A stretch of DNA of 64,000 nt from Anabaena sp. PCC 7108 (GTDB lineage: Bacteria > Cyanobacteriota > Cyanobacteriia > Cyanobacteriales > Nostocaceae): positions 1,499,403 to 1,563,402 of the forward strand of contig NZ_KB235896.1 in assembly GCF_000332135.1 (NCBI RefSeq), written 5' to 3'. Below, one piece after another: positions 19,798-29,904 of the stretch; the first letter of the stretch is position 1, and the number at the start of each line of letters is the position of its first letter. The position numbers and the translations under genes are program-made. Below the pieces are notes generated by a model, which saw nothing but the letters and a program-made list of their open reading frames with translations, ran no database searches and was not told the origin of the DNA.

Positions 19798-19801
19798 TAT
19801 T

Positions 19802-19995
19802 GAGTGCTGAGTGCTGAGTGCTGAGTGCTGAGTGCTGAGTGCTGAGTATTGAGTATTGAGTGCTGAGTGCTGAGTGCTGAGTGATGAGTGATGAGTGATG
19901 AGTGATGAGTGATGAGTGATGAGTGATGAGTGATGAGTATTGAGTGCTGAGTATTGAGTATTGAGTGCTGAGTATTGAGTATTGAGTATTGAGTA
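19802..19995. repeat. Heptamer array GAGTGCT/GAGTGAT/GAGTATT, about 27 copies
   Basis: An uninterrupted 7-nt tandem array of nearly 200 bp directly after the DUF2470 gene. The three unit variants occur in blocks (a GAGTGCT block, two GAGTATT, GAGTGCT again, about eight GAGTGAT, then a mixed GAGTATT/GAGTGCT block), which indicates growth by local slippage. Open frames across it on the minus strand are only by-products of the 7-nt period. Confidence 0.95.
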
Positions 19996-22297: not shown

Positions 22298-22339
22298 CTC
22301 TAGTTACTAGTTATTCATTTGCGGAGATTTTATAGTTTT

Positions 22340-22440
22340 TAGGGTGCGTCGGACAAGATTAGGACTAAAGCTGCGTGTCACACCAAAAATCTATTGTAGG
22401 GTGTGGTTCGGCAAGCTCACCAACCACGTCAGATATCAAA
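22340..22440. repeat. Dispersed GGTGCG/GTAGGGTG repeat at the cassette 5' end
   Basis: AGGGTGCGTCGG and GTAGGGTGTGG motifs lie in a block that continues into the first codons of the next gene. These motifs recur at 663, 37900 and 43320. The first about 20 residues of the 22375 gene therefore appear to be written by repeat sequence. Confidence 0.5.
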
Positions 22441-22833
22441 AATCCTATTGTTGGTACTTGGGCTGCTAATGCGTTGTTGCGGTGGATAGGTCAGATTGAT
22501 GTTGCGGTAAGTGCGCCAGTTGCGTTAGTTGATGCGGTTAAGAGTGGAGTTATTGCTTCTTATGAGGAGTTTAAGTCTGTCGCATTGGATGTTTATGACA
22601 AGTTGAATAACGATTACAACCTAGATGATTTAGTACCTATCTATCGCATTAGAAGAGAAATAGGTGAACGAGTTAGCCGTGAAAAATTCAATAAATGGCT
22701 AGTAGAAATGCAAGCTGATGACATTTTGCAGCTAATTGCCGGAGAAATACCAGACTTTACCTCTGATAAACGCGAAGATTCAATTTCTATACCTGGTACA
22801 CAACTACGTTCTTACGCTAAACGCTTGAGTTAA
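22375..22833 (+). CDS. Probable winged-helix protein, first gene of a three-gene cassette
   Basis: A 152-residue protein with a GTG start; its first about 20 residues come from a dispersed repeat, so the true start may differ. The C-terminal half (LVPIYRIRREIGERVSREKFNKWL, shortened, and IPGTQLRSYAKRL) has the helix-helix-strand-hairpin rhythm of a winged-helix domain, with basic residues in the second helix. It is followed 48 nt later by a large ATPase. No named family was recognised. It could be the regulatory or DNA-recognition part of the cassette. Confidence 0.6.
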   Translation: MSHQKSIVGCGSASSPTTSDIKNPIVGTWAANALLRWIGQIDVAVSAPVALVDAVKSGVIASYEEFKSVALDVYDKLNNDYNLDDLVPIYRIRREIGERVSREKFNKWLVEMQADDILQLIAGEIPDFTSDKREDSISIPGTQLRSYAKRLS

Positions 22834-22881
22834 TCAAATTATCCCCGCAGTTTCTAGTTCCTCGCACCATACGAAATCACC

Positions 22882-24813
22882 ATGACAGATACCCCTATTT
22901 CTCCCATAGAAGCCGTTAATGCTGTAATTAATAGTCATAATCCATTTATTAACGCTGGGATTGTTAAAGAACAGGATGTTTGGGGAAAAGGAGTCCCCGA
23001 CGTACCGACATTAAACGCCCATGCTTCTAATCAAGTTTTTAAAGCCATTGAATTTGTTCGCAAAAGTCAATCTAGTCAAGATAAAGTAACTTCAATTGCT
23101 ATTACTGCACAGCAGGGAGTTGGTAAAACTCATCTTTTGAGTCGCATTCGTCATGAACTAGAAAAAGTGGGTGGTGCTTTATTTGTTTATGCCAGTGCTA
23201 ATAACTATACAGACTTAAATTTAGTTAAATACCAATTCCAGCAAACTTTGGCAGATAGTCTCAGTAAAACTGGTAGCCAAAAAGTCATGCAATGGCAAGA
23301 AGTTGCCGCAGCTATGGCCAACGAAGGTAGAGAAAATGCTACTACTCCAGCAGAGTTAGTCAAAAGATTTGACAATGCGTATAAAAAAAATAAAAACTTA
23401 ATGAATACTCTGCAAAGACAGGTTATTAAAAATAAATCTGATGCAGATCCTTATATTATTCGCGCTATTCTGTGGACACTTTCAGAAACGCAATCGCCTT
23501 TTGCCATTAAATGGCTATCTGGTGAAGAATTAGCTCAATTGAATGCTGATGAGTTGGGATTACCTAATCCTAGTAAAACTAATCAAGATAGAGAAAGTGA
23601 GGCTCTTAAAAATATTCAACAAGTTTTGAATCTAGTTAGTTTTTACAACTCAATTGTTATTTGTTTTGATGAAATAGATGTTAAGAATAACTCTACTGAA
23701 GATGGGTTTCCAACAGAAAGTGTAATTGCTAATTTCGTGAAAATTCTCCATGATACTTTAGAAAATTCAGACCTCAGCCAAGGTGTAGTGATTCTGACGG
23801 TAATGTTACCAGAAACATGGAGAGATAAAGTAAATTCTCTTCAAGGTGGTACACCTGATAGAATTTCTAAATTTACACAACGAAAACCGATAGATTTAAA
23901 ACCTGTTAGTGCCGATTATATGGTACAATTAGCAACTGTCTGGTTACGAGAATATTATAGTTCAAAAAACTTAATTCCTCCTCATCCACTTTACCCATTT
24001 GAAGAAAGTCATCTGAGAGAATACGGTAAGAATAAACCAACTGTTAGAGAAGCTTTACGATGGTGTGCTGATAATTTTAAAGTTGAAGAAGAGCAACTAC
24101 CTGGTGATCCATTTGAAAGGTTTGAATTAGCATTCACAAGGGAAAATGAAGCAAAAATTGAAGAATATATAGAAGATAGTTCTCTCATAGCTGAAGCTCT
24201 ATATTTTGGATTTAATACTTTAAAAGGACAGACTTTAGAAGGAGTAATGATTGAAGAACTTACAAATGATATCAAGCCCAAAGCACACAATAAAAATTTT
24301 ATCAACTTCAAAGTTATTGGTAATGAAAATGGTAAAGAAGTGAAAATTGGTGTAGCAGTTATCCAAGATTCTCAATCTACATTAAATGCAGGTTTAAGAC
24401 GGTTAAATGACTATCATACTTTTGATTTAACTCGTGGTTGTTTAGTGCGTTCTAAATCCAAAATAAAACAAATGCAAAAAAAATCAGCAACATATAGGTT
24501 GTTTGATGAATTGATTTTACAAAGAGGAGGAGAAAATGTAGATGTAATAGAAGATCAAATTCGCCCACTTGTAGCCATATTAGCTATTTATCAAAAGCGA
24601 CAAAATTATAAACTAACAGAAGAACAGATTTTAGATTTTATTTCTAAGAATAAGATTACATTTGATAATCTGTTATTAAGAGAAATTTTAAGTGATCCAT
24701 CTGGTAATATGCCTGACGTTGACGATGGTAATTTTGGAGGATTATTTGATGATGAAGATGATAATATTCCTGACGTTGATGATGATGGTGGTTTAGGTGA
24801 TTTATATGGTTAA
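22882..24813 (+). CDS. Large P-loop (AAA-like) ATPase of the three-gene cassette
   Basis: A 643-residue protein. Walker A is AQQGVGKTHLL (residues 76-86), Walker B is IVICFDE (258-264), and FTQRKPIDL after about 330 sits where a sensor or arginine finger would be. After a helical lid (about 360-410) follows a second domain (residues 450-560, KEVKIGVAVIQDSQ and RRLNDYHTFDL), perhaps nuclease- or oligomerisation-related, and then a strikingly acidic tail of Asp repeats (PDVDDGNF, DDEDDN, PDVDDDGG). The next gene starts 6 nt later. The acidic tail may mimic DNA or bind the partner. Family not identified. Confidence 0.75.
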   Translation: MTDTPISPIEAVNAVINSHNPFINAGIVKEQDVWGKGVPDVPTLNAHASNQVFKAIEFVRKSQSSQDKVTSIAITAQQGVGKTHLLSRIRHELEKVGGALFVYASANNYTDLNLVKYQFQQTLADSLSKTGSQKVMQWQEVAAAMANEGRENATTPAELVKRFDNAYKKNKNLMNTLQRQVIKNKSDADPYIIRAILWTLSETQSPFAIKWLSGEELAQLNADELGLPNPSKTNQDRESEALKNIQQVLNLVSFYNSIVICFDEIDVKNNSTEDGFPTESVIANFVKILHDTLENSDLSQGVVILTVMLPETWRDKVNSLQGGTPDRISKFTQRKPIDLKPVSADYMVQLATVWLREYYSSKNLIPPHPLYPFEESHLREYGKNKPTVREALRWCADNFKVEEEQLPGDPFERFELAFTRENEAKIEEYIEDSSLIAEALYFGFNTLKGQTLEGVMIEELTNDIKPKAHNKNFINFKVIGNENGKEVKIGVAVIQDSQSTLNAGLRRLNDYHTFDLTRGCLVRSKSKIKQMQKKSATYRLFDELILQRGGENVDVIEDQIRPLVAILAIYQKRQNYKLTEEQILDFISKNKITFDNLLLREILSDPSGNMPDVDDGNFGGLFDDEDDNIPDVDDDGGLGDLYG

Positions 24814-24819
24814 TTAATT

Positions 24820-26283
24820 ATGAATAAATCTGTTTCAATTTATAATGCCTTATGCCTACCTGTTCATGATGTTGAGGCTTTAATACAAGGGCAAATTATT
24901 GCCGCGATACCTCGTAAATTGCTGAATACTGGGCAAACATTTGCTCTTTATCCTGTTGATATTTCTACAATAGAAATTGAGAAATATTACCGTACAAGTT
25001 TTTTACCTAATGTTCAAACTGCTATCAAACAAGTTAATACTGATAAAGTATTAATTAAAGCATGGGCTAAATGTGAACTTTGCGAAATTCTAGATAAAAC
25101 AACACCATTAGATATTTTATCTCAATTAACAATCTGGAATTTAGAAACTTTGGAAGCAATGATACAGAAACATCAAAATATTTTTCTGGCTTATTTGCGC
25201 GTTTATCATTTATCTCAACCTTTGGAAATTCCAGCTATTCCAAATATTCAAGATAAGTTAGGTAAATTTGCACCTTTACCGAATAATATTTCTGCTTCTG
25301 AAGATAAACCCGTATTAAGTGATCAAGTATTTATTCGACGCAAACGTCAATTAGAAAACCTAGAACCTCCTTTACATCCTGAATTAGAAGAATTGCAAAG
25401 TGCATTGTTAAAAATAGCTAATAATAACCCATCAGCACAGCAATTAGAAAATGAAATTAAAATCTTTTTAGGTTGGAGTAATGCACCAAATACAAATACA
25501 TCTGATTTAGCTTGGATAAAAACAATTACAACATTAGGAGATAGAAGCATAGAATTTGAAGAGAAAAAAAGTAATTATCAAGCGGGTACAGACTTTGAAA
25601 ACATCTCCCGTCAAAGCCTTGATTTCTTAGGATTTCAAGTTGAAAATGCTTATAAAGGAGGTGCAGGAGGTTTAGACTTATATTGTTCACAACCTTATCC
25701 TTTAGTATGTGAATGTAAAGCAGGTAGAAGTATTCCAGATCGTGCAGTAGAAGAATTAGATAGAATTGGAAAAAGACATCTGCAAGAAAATTATCTGCAA
25801 GCAGTAAGGTTAATTATTGGACCAGGAGAACACACTAGACAACTCAAAAAATCTCTCGAAAAATCTGCGAAAATATCTAAAACCAGTATTATTAAAGCTA
25901 TGACATTACAAAAATTAGTAGAACTGAAAGCAAAATATCCAGGTGCGATAAACTTAATTGAATTAAAAAAATACTTAGAACCCGGTCAAATAGATGATAA
26001 AATTAACGAATATATTGATAAAATAGAAAAAGAGATAAAATTGCGATCGCATATTATTCAAGCAGTAAAAGAAATCCCTAAATCAACAAATCAAAATTCT
26101 GTAACAGTCATAGAAATTCGTAGTCACTATAACGCCATCAATAAATCAACTTTAACAGATGAAATAGTACATGATTTATTAATAGAACTATCATCACCAT
26201 TAACAGGATACTTAGGAAGAGAAAAAGGAAACGACTGGAAAACAGATAAATTCTATTATTTGCGCGACTTAGCAATAAATTAA
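24820..26283 (+). CDS. PD-(D/E)XK nuclease-like protein of the three-gene cassette
   Basis: A 487-residue protein. The N-terminal about 160 residues (YNALCLPVHDVEALIQGQ, then IPRKLLNTG) recall the DUF1802 pattern, only loosely. The middle holds a PD-(D/E)XK nuclease-like core: FENISRQSLDFLGFQ, GGAGGLDLYC with Asp286, and VCECKAGR with Glu298 and Lys300, followed by the helix RAVEELDRIGKRHL. The C-terminal part is helical and ends with a winged-helix-like stretch. It is likely to cut or bind DNA with the ATPase encoded 6 nt upstream. It might be a restriction or repair enzyme; no family name is certain. Confidence 0.75.
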   Translation: MNKSVSIYNALCLPVHDVEALIQGQIIAAIPRKLLNTGQTFALYPVDISTIEIEKYYRTSFLPNVQTAIKQVNTDKVLIKAWAKCELCEILDKTTPLDILSQLTIWNLETLEAMIQKHQNIFLAYLRVYHLSQPLEIPAIPNIQDKLGKFAPLPNNISASEDKPVLSDQVFIRRKRQLENLEPPLHPELEELQSALLKIANNNPSAQQLENEIKIFLGWSNAPNTNTSDLAWIKTITTLGDRSIEFEEKKSNYQAGTDFENISRQSLDFLGFQVENAYKGGAGGLDLYCSQPYPLVCECKAGRSIPDRAVEELDRIGKRHLQENYLQAVRLIIGPGEHTRQLKKSLEKSAKISKTSIIKAMTLQKLVELKAKYPGAINLIELKKYLEPGQIDDKINEYIDKIEKEIKLRSHIIQAVKEIPKSTNQNSVTVIEIRSHYNAINKSTLTDEIVHDLLIELSSPLTGYLGREKGNDWKTDKFYYLRDLAIN

Positions 26284-26334: not shown

Positions 26335-26697
26335 TCATCCCAAAGTCAAAACACCCGCTGGAAAATTCACCACCAAAGGGAAAAACTCCAACCACTCCGA
26401 ACCCAATAAAATCTCCGTTAATTCATCTCCAACATAAACAGGAATTTCATACTCTTGGTTATCCAAAATTACCTTACCTGAGTAAAGTTCAAAAGTTTTT
26501 AATCCCTGTGCTGTTACCAATTCATCATCACTTACAAATTGCCAGTTAAGTCCATTTAAATCTTGTTTATTAATAGCCAAAAAGCCTGTGAAACCAGTAT
26601 CAAATAAAGCATCCACAGGCAGATTTAAGCCATCAGCAGTAATTAATTCAATCTCAAAAAATAGTTGTTTTCCATTCCCAAAATAACCCTCAATCAT
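26335..26697 (-). CDS. Clan AA aspartic-protease-like protein
   Basis: A 120-residue single-domain retropepsin-like protein. The catalytic triplet is Asp33-Thr34-Gly35 in ALFDTGFTGFLAI, followed by the flap-like region and the closing ILLGSEWLEFFPLVV, which matches the second hydrophobic Gly loop of the family. Homodimers form one active site. Its start overlaps the stop of the upstream gene (26694-27011) by 4 nt, so the two are one operon. In cyanobacteria such small proteases commonly sit after a short hypothetical gene, as here. Confidence 0.82.
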   Translation of the reverse strand: MIEGYFGNGKQLFFEIELITADGLNLPVDALFDTGFTGFLAINKQDLNGLNWQFVSDDELVTAQGLKTFELYSGKVILDNQEYEIPVYVGDELTEILLGSEWLEFFPLVVNFPAGVLTLG

Positions 26698-27011
26698 ATT
26701 CTGCCAACTGCCCCAATTTCATTTAACCTAAACATACAATGTACAGCATGAGGGTGTTGATCCCGTGCTTTTTGACTAGCAACTTCTTTATCCTCATCAA
26801 TGAAATAATCACCGCTATCTGGTTCTACAGCAATATACCAGTTATAATGTTCTTTCATTAACTCAGGACGGACACGCTCAAAAATTGCCCGACAGCGTTT
26901 ATGAAAAGCATCTCTTTCCGCTTCCCGTTTAGCTAACTCTTCCGGTGATAAAGTCAGTTCAGGAAAAATTCTGCCTCTTCTTCTTGGTTGTTGTGATGTT
27001 AATTGTGTCAT
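26694..27011 (-). CDS. Hypothetical protein coupled to the aspartic protease
   Basis: A 105-residue protein. Residues 5-45 are highly charged and helical (PRRRGRIFPELTLSPEELAKREAE, shortened). The second half, WYIAVEPDSGDYFIDEDKEVASQKARDQHP, has the look of a small alpha/beta domain. It overlaps the downstream protease gene by 4 nt. No function known; a substrate or inhibitor of the protease is conceivable, but no evidence separates these ideas. Confidence 0.7.
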   Translation of the reverse strand: MTQLTSQQPRRRGRIFPELTLSPEELAKREAERDAFHKRCRAIFERVRPELMKEHYNWYIAVEPDSGDYFIDEDKEVASQKARDQHPHAVHCMFRLNEIGAVGRI

Positions 27012-28840: not shown

Positions 28841-28976
28841 AAGAGGGAAATCTCAAATATATTGGTCAAACACCAGTTTAATGTATGGTTCTAGCCATCC
28901 CTGCTTTGTCTTATACAGTTTACATTTAGTAGCCAACGGGAAACGGGGAACGGGTAACAACTAGAAGGTGATTTAT

Positions 28977-29214
28977 AATTCGTAATTCGTAATTCGTAAT
29001 TCGTAATTCGTAATTCCTCCGCATCTCCCCATCTCCGCGTCTCCGAGTCTCCGCATCTCCCCATCTCCGCGTCTCCGTGTCTCCCCATCCCCGCGTCCCC
29101 GCGTCTCCGTGTCCCCGCGTCTCCCCATCCCCCCATCTCCGCGTCTCTCCATCCCCGCGTCCCCGCGTCTCCCCATCCCCGCGTCCCCGCATCTCCCTAT
29201 CTCCCTGTCTCCAG
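28977..29214. repeat. AATTCGT array followed by a TCTCCGCG-type minisatellite
   Basis: About five 7-nt AATTCGT units (28977-29015) are followed by roughly 200 bp of GC-rich, C-strand-biased units (GTCTCCGCATCTCCCC and similar, 9 and 15 nt periods). On the minus strand these give Arg/Gly/Asp-rich spurious frames. It ends at the 3' end of the RelE-like gene. Confidence 0.9.
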
Positions 29215-29715: not shown

Positions 29716-29866
29716 AAAATTTAATGAAGATCAACACTCTGTCTAAATAAAAATACTTTTTCCACCAGAATAGCAATGATTTACAGCAATCTCCGACAAT
29801 ACCCAAGGTACACTACAATCTATTCGCCTGCATGGGAGACGCAAAGACGCTCTTGCGCGGAAAAAA

Positions 29867-29904
29867 TGACCAATCACCAATCACCAATCACCAATCACCA
29901 ATGA
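29867..29904. repeat. CCAATCA heptamers just before livM
   Basis: Five tandem ACCAATC units end 8 nt before the livM start codon. The usual ribosome-binding region of livM is therefore made of repeat sequence. Confidence 0.85.

Follow-up and report, generated by a model that had tools for sequence, protein, structure and literature searches.

A three-gene ATPase–nuclease operon at a housekeeping site of Nostocales, with internal blocks that do not follow the species

Genes at the Locus

The window analyzed here is a stretch of 64,000 nucleotides from Anabaena sp. PCC 7108 (contig NZ_KB235896.1, positions 1,499,403 to 1,563,402). It contains an operon of three genes, designated A, B, and C, for a winged-helix-like protein, an AAA+ ATPase, and a predicted nuclease. 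The operon recurs in Nostocales and their kin, mostly at one fixed chromosomal site, and two of its internal blocks depart from species descent. The genes lie at 22375–22833, 22882–24813, and 24820–26283 with intergenic gaps of 48 and 6 nt, which reproduces the coordinates and spacing on which a first-pass annotation, made from the sequence alone, had based a single unit. The features are listed below; all but the repeat, to which no strand is assigned, are on the plus strand.

22359–22444, no strand: dispersed repeat at the rearrangement junction, giving the first ~23 codons of gene A of the window
22375–22833, +: gene A, 5'-truncated, 152 amino acids; the first winged-helix-like domain is gone and the second is kept
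22666–25240, +: putative exchange cassette 1 (end of A, all of B, start of C), approximate, ±20 codons
22882–24813, +: gene B, AAA+ ATPase of the Orc/Cdc6-TnsC-BrxC-STAND type, 643 amino acids
24178–24450, +: B residues 433–523, predicted helix, three strands, helix, and strand, with no conserved catalytic D/E-K
24691–24810, +: acidic tail of B with the class I pattern of ending (DDLxxLF-like in kin, GDLYG here)
24820–26283, +: gene C, 487 amino acids
24820–25314, +: C residues 1–165, DUF1802 region, ASCH/PUA-like fold
25537–26019, +: C residues 240–400, PD-(D/E)XK nuclease, FokI/HindIII/Nt.BspD6I-like; approximate putative exchange cassette 2
25675–25719, +: active-site triad D286, E298, K300
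26035–26280, +: C residues 406–487, winged helix

B has the properties of an active-type AAA+ ATPase of the Orc/Cdc6 clade. The Walker A and Walker B motifs seen in the first reading hold across the family: the lysine K82 is conserved in 79/80 rows of B (one gap) and the aspartate D263 in 78/80 (one arginine, one gap). B passes the Pfam cut-off for KAP_NTPase (27.9 bits against 20), and its best fold matches include replication initiators. Residues 433–523 are read as an inactive nuclease domain, based on predicted secondary structure and conservation. The acidic tail noted earlier is real and is confined to one allele class. Most B proteins of class I (the classes are described below) have the acidic DDLxxLF-like end, while classes II, III, and IV end otherwise.

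C matches Pfam DUF1802 with an E-value of 8.6e-32. The annotated PD-(D/E)XK triad was borne out, as each of D286, E298, and K300 is kept in 80/81 rows of C (one gap). The predicted fold and the conserved triad identify C as a nuclease fused to an ASCH-like domain. DUF1802 is seen in 66/292 genomes of the phylum; in 43 of the 66 it lies in a C-like frame of 428–524 amino acids and in the others only in shorter proteins (counted by eye). A stand-alone DUF1802 protein of 199 amino acids is encoded in the genome of PCC 7108 itself (L154:9910-10509, minus strand; G000:C2:5147760-5148278). In the open-licence literature of PubMed Central (PMC), DUF1802 is mentioned only in a single, unrelated paper.

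Recurrence of the Gene Order

Two samples were used. The first consists of 40 regions drawn from B matches in 60 genomes, mostly strong matches; the second consists of 80 loci, the best 80 of 216 relatives of C in named genomes. A match to B is present in 46/60 genomes, that of PCC 7108 included, although 7 of the 46 have only weak matches (E-value 4.8e-15 or worse). The three-gene order, for which a search in other genomes had been suggested, is kept in 36/40 regions picked by B and in 78/80 loci picked by C, across Nostocales and kin. These counts indicate a three-gene unit far beyond chance. The four regions without the full order are L042, which is cut, and L046, L049, and L050, where B stands alone at the threshold used. 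The two loci picked by C that lack A (L074 and L103) are both cut at a contig end.

Two of the 78 ordered loci carry deletions. In Nostoc flagelliforme (L098:8598-9899) a deletion fused A with B, and in Nostoc sp. LPT (L140:9525-11035) a deletion shortened B and C. In three other loci (L060, L063, and L065) A is preceded by an additional B gene, giving the order B-A-B-C; the inner copy of L060 is disrupted close to its start. The extra B might be a reserve cassette or an intermediate of an exchange.

A distant paralogue of B with 696 amino acids (L050:9371-11461; G000:C2:4219018) was found with neither A nor C beside it. It is located near a ParA-type gene (AAA_31) and, by eye, a ParB-like gene.

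The Chromosomal Site

The operon is usually found among the same housekeeping genes. Downstream, pgi is present in 42/68 loci with at least 6 kb of sequence on that side. It lies 120–3230 bp after C, with a median of 1765 bp over the 46 loci of any length that show it. Upstream, mutM is present in 41/62 loci with 6 kb. Of the 56 loci covered for 6 kb in both directions, 46 carry pgi and/or mutM and 28 carry both, and ten carry neither. The two flanking genes together occur with all five classes of B. Pfam annotation of nine flank representatives identified pgi, mutM, a livM-type permease, mdh, and five others.

The operon had been expected in varied neighbourhoods near defence genes. This does not hold for most loci, where it lies among pgi, livM, mutM, and mdh. 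A defence island can therefore be rejected for most Nostocales loci, with the limits that the flanks were not scanned with PADLOC and that the 10/56 loci without pgi and mutM were not examined for defence neighbours. A mobile element was also considered and rejected: no homologue of B or C was found in viral contigs or plasmids, and none of B in phages.

Downstream of C in the window (26335–27011, minus strand) are two small genes, one retropepsin-like by eye and the other of 105 amino acids. They belong to clusters 11 and 9, which recur in 28 and 31 of 81 loci; one representative of each had no Pfam match. Between genes of the window, at 19801–19994, 28976–29212, and 29865–29902, lie short tandem repeats whose units are 7 or 8 bases long or multiples of that, and some of them read as spurious open frames.

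Exchange of Internal Blocks

Comparison of the operon with its flanks might shed light on how it is inherited. Of 81 loci (the 80 and the window), 42 show all of A, B, C, pgi, and livM within the sequence covered. Four were dropped: the window, which lacks the front of A, and L090, L095, and L140, which have short or damaged genes. The remaining 38 loci give 703 pairs. Flank similarity was calculated from pgi and livM, and blocks were compared by sliding windows and by their correlations (rho). Labelling nuclease subtypes by short motifs left 10/46 loci unlabelled and was abandoned for the sliding-window comparison.

The flanking genes agree with one another: rho is 0.91 between pgi and livM, and mutM, available in 351 pairs, gives 0.79 against pgi and 0.85 against livM. 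This indicates that the neighbourhood is inherited as a whole. Residues 1–160 of A (0.625) and 145–235 of C (0.542) follow the flanks, and residues 405–487 of C do so partly (0.319). Little or no such relation is seen for the nuclease, residues 240–400 of C (0.114, p = 0.09), and for B (0.005, p = 0.47). Between blocks, residues 165–222 of A and B are correlated at 0.79, B and residues 1–140 of C at 0.42, and B and the nuclease at −0.07. Two blocks therefore appear to have been replaced separately in place, probably through recombination: one runs from the end of A through B to the start of C, and the other is the nuclease. A first block that spans three genes is expected if its parts must fit one another or recognize together. 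The nuclease, judged from these correlations, can change alone.

Pairs of close relatives illustrate this. In 48 pairs the flank identity is at least 0.95; B is below 0.6 in 35 of them and the nuclease below 0.75 in 23. Compared over residues 151–421 of B and nuclease residues 251–330, L071 and L072 (the latter from Anabaena catenula FACHB-362) are 0.98 identical in the flanks, 0.39 in B, and 0.99 in the nuclease. For L100 and L101 the values are 0.98, 0.42, and 0.68, and for L128 and L150 they are 0.98, 0.47, and 0.43. Thus even congeners with flanks 98% identical can have B proteins only 39% identical.

The tree of B (77 rows) has deep classes, each mixing members of several families. Four long rows (L148, L075, L141, and L123) are unsure in place; L075 was put in class I and the other three were left unclassed. 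On the tree of pgi and livM (46 loci), the five classes of B need 20 changes, while the minimum is 4 and the mean after shuffling is 24.4. The distribution is near random yet slightly clustered, with 4/200 shuffles as low. The window carries a class I B, while its nearest kin by flanks carry classes Ib, IV, and III. At the DNA level (E-value ≤ 1e-20), the window and its sister are 87–95% identical outside the operon and 69% and 76% at the operon ends, and there is no alignment across most of B.

Neither cassette exchange at this locus nor its fixed site was found in the open-licence PMC papers searched. The novelty here is the fixed housekeeping site together with an interior that does not follow the species; the kind of operon itself has already been predicted in print.

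Comparison with Known Systems

That prediction is found in Rakesh, Aravind, and Krishnan 2024 (PMC10853773), where the same layout is described in one sentence, inferred from context, as a counter-invader system. The shared properties are an Orc/Cdc6-type ATPase, a nuclease fused to an ASCH-like domain, and a multi-domain winged-helix-like protein in one operon. The putative inactive nuclease region between the AAA+ domain and the C-terminal helices of B may be a further one. The published operons have a DndG-like protein with three winged helix-turn-helix domains, while A looks two-part. Compared with the description given there, the operon studied here also appears to have exchanged internal blocks.

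The first-pass annotation had fitted none of the three proteins to a named family. As far as PADLOC-DB 2.0.0 (2023) is concerned this stands: the proposed search gave no full-length match of A, B, or C, and partial, weak stretches only; those with an E-value ≤ 0.01 are Cas7_IIId for B (0.0022) and mad8 for the B of A. catenula (0.0064). It does not stand for C, which has DUF1802, for B, which passes KAP_NTPase, or for the layout, predicted in print. PHROGs and NCBIfam gave no full-length match, the best NCBIfam model for B being ATPase_Sll1717 (34.5 bits against a cut-off of 75). A sequence-profile search of the PDB gave nothing solid, with best E-values of 0.93 for C, 0.031 for B, and 1.7 for A.

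A sister operon (L049:8577-16905) has distant homologues of A and B (E-values of 1.3e-7 and 2e-18 by hhalign), followed by an exonuclease-PD-(D/E)XK-FtsK protein that matches SspH, mad8, and Cas4 of PADLOC. It resembles the HerA/FtsK capture systems as far as PMC10853773 describes them, and the operon of the window has C where the FtsK protein stands. Relatives of A and B next to a protein of this published class give independent support for the counter-invader kind. The L049 locus also encodes a DUF2779/Cas4-like protein with LRV repeats.

In bacteriophage exclusion (BREX; PMC12839542), BrxC has 1200–1300 amino acids and is accompanied by PglZ and a methyltransferase. The conserved set here is A-B-C only, with neither; no frame of the size of PglZ or PglX lies beside the operon of the window, and A, B, and C have no BREX match. 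Type IV modification-dependent restriction enzymes (PMC7641849, PMC7897488) fuse a PUA-superfamily domain to a nuclease, as in C. The operon differs from them in its linked AAA+ ATPase and separate DNA-binding protein, and its modification dependence is only predicted. In restriction–modification genes such as modA (PMC3311624), recognition parts reportedly recombine within a conserved gene frame, as they appear to do here. The difference is that here a three-gene block and, separately, the nuclease would be exchanged across genera and families.

Rearrangement in Anabaena sp. PCC 7108

The small winged-helix-like protein of the first-pass annotation is a real gene, 5'-truncated in this genome. 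Homologues of A have 197–242 amino acids against 152 in the window, except for the fusion with B in L098 (465 amino acids). The missing part is the first ~94 codons, which encode a winged-helix-like domain. A is probably a two-part winged-helix protein; some of the 58 family members compared have weak winged-helix matches (SelB-wing_2 in 10 and DUF6293_C in 5). A Mu-type prophage portal protein (PF06074, 1266 amino acids) of the same genome (L153:8283-12083, minus strand; near 1073581 of G000:C2) contains a stretch of 87 residues 40% identical to the second domain of A. This A-like stretch is possibly a decoy or a shared DNA-binding part.

In the sister species (G001), an aldo/keto reductase gene is followed after 570 bp by A, B, C, and pgi. 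The alignment of the PCC 7108 genome with it ends at the end of the aldo/keto reductase gene, ~85 kb off on the opposite strand, and restarts in the window at 22445, around codon 95 of A. The DNA at the junction (query 22330–22445) has at least 41 matches in its own genome (40 of 138 candidates were scored). Two copies of 85–86 nt at 99% identity stop at query base 115, which corresponds to 22444. On the far side of the repeat is sdhA, which in the sister species lies on the same contig ~32 kb beyond C. The lost front of A has no match anywhere else in the genome (E-value ≤ 10). These breakpoints suggest that an inversion-type rearrangement at the dispersed repeat, its second end traced only in part, removed the first domain of A plus upstream DNA. 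The earlier placement of the operon between sdhA and repeats was right for the repeat at the 5' edge, and sdhA is a neighbour only through the rearrangement. The frames of B and C stay open. Nevertheless, because the first domain of A and the upstream DNA are lost, this copy is probably weakened or mis-regulated.

Discussion

The sequence comparisons make it fairly probable that the operon encodes a resident system of the counter-invader, restriction-like kind, with an Orc/Cdc6-type ATPase at its centre. The unit of ATPase, nuclease, and DNA-binding protein was rightly seen as a candidate for anti-phage or DNA-processing work, and the expected defence neighbourhood fails at most loci. In the proposed working, the paired winged-helix-like domains of A would act with the AAA+ assembly formed by B to load onto DNA and scan along it. 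On the scanned DNA, a base or mark would be read by the ASCH/PUA-like domain of C. At a foreign target, the ATP cycle of B would license the FokI-like PD-(D/E)XK domain of C to cut. Computation shows the domain make-up, the intact motifs, the gene order, the site, and the mosaic; scanning, sensing of modified bases, cutting of invader DNA, and the resulting protection are what we infer, and the diversity of alleles may be kept because invaders escape common ones.

Several facts weigh against the counter-invader system with exchanged blocks. Most loci lie among housekeeping rather than defence genes, and, in contrast to mobile defence islands, the operon shares the descent of the species at its edges. 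The lack of homologues in plasmids and viral contigs (B or C) and in phages (B), and of full-length PADLOC matches, belongs here too. No Foldseek E-value for C is better than 1e-3. The ASCH fold is known also from RNA-acting and amidohydrolase proteins, so that the reading of modified DNA by C stays conditional. Residues 165–222 of A (0.194, p = 0.012) and 1–140 of C (0.140, p = 0.046) keep a weak link to the species. The blocks are not completely independent, as B correlates with residues 1–160 of A (0.20, p = 0.002) and 145–235 of C (0.17, p = 0.006). Finally, the neighbourhoods described in PMC10853773 are mobile, while the site here is fixed at most Nostocales loci.

Some of these facts could be explained otherwise. 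Self/non-self recognition that limits DNA uptake or keeps sister strains apart, and is not directed at phages, would account for the presence in different species of several old classes of alleles at one locus. This pattern is reportedly known from fungal incompatibility genes (PMC11138114). Such a kin-recognition or transformation barrier is unlikely; no modification enzyme is among the nine annotated flank representatives, the other flank clusters not having been annotated. Still a little less probable is a complex for chromosome maintenance or repair, a house gene set near mutM in which the Orc/Cdc6-like ATPase and the nuclease act on the cell's own damaged or modified DNA. The fixed site by mutM, mdh, and pgi, the vertically inherited edges, and the replication initiators among the fold matches of B would fit it. 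Against it, the distribution is patchy, with no B match in 14/60 genomes and paralogue-like best matches in the 7/46 weak cases. A repair enzyme would also not be expected to show deep allele classes that recur across families at one site while the flanks stay unmixed.

A remnant of a Tn7-like transposition machine, with a TnsC-like ATPase and a TnsA-like nuclease kept in place, is very improbable. Beyond the neighbours of the site, no further gene is conserved with A-B-C (a transposase and ends were not searched directly), the plasmid and phage searches were negative as given above, and one site is used across genera. Least probable of all is an artefact in which rapid evolution of B and the nuclease, or faulty alignment of them, mimics a mosaic. 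The mean identity of B is only 52% over the 38 loci, as such an artefact would have it. However, saturation cannot give close species 39–42% identity in residues 151–421 of B while other pairs reach 95–99%, and the DNA alignment of the window and its sister is lost inside B with flanks at 87–95%. The decoupled parts also correlate mutually (residues 165–222 of A with B) and have sharp edges.

If the operon is a counter-invader system, a wider and more tentative proposal can be made by analogy. It may be a fixed immune locus of multicellular cyanobacteria, a counterpart of the major histocompatibility complex or of fungal incompatibility loci; we would put this somewhat below an even chance. 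One cassette for recognition and ATPase, running from the end of A through B into the ASCH-like part of C, and another for the nuclease would be swapped separately in place between species and families. The conserved segments of the vertically inherited frame would serve as recombination arms, and rare-allele advantage would hold the old classes.

Bacterial defence is usually told as gain and loss with mobile elements. Here, the predicted operon stays and its interior changes. Natural variants of sensor and effector could be matched against phage range. The long-standing question of which part of an ATPase–nuclease system decides recognition could be approached by natural pairs such as L071 and L072, where the nuclease and the frame are near-identical and B is different.

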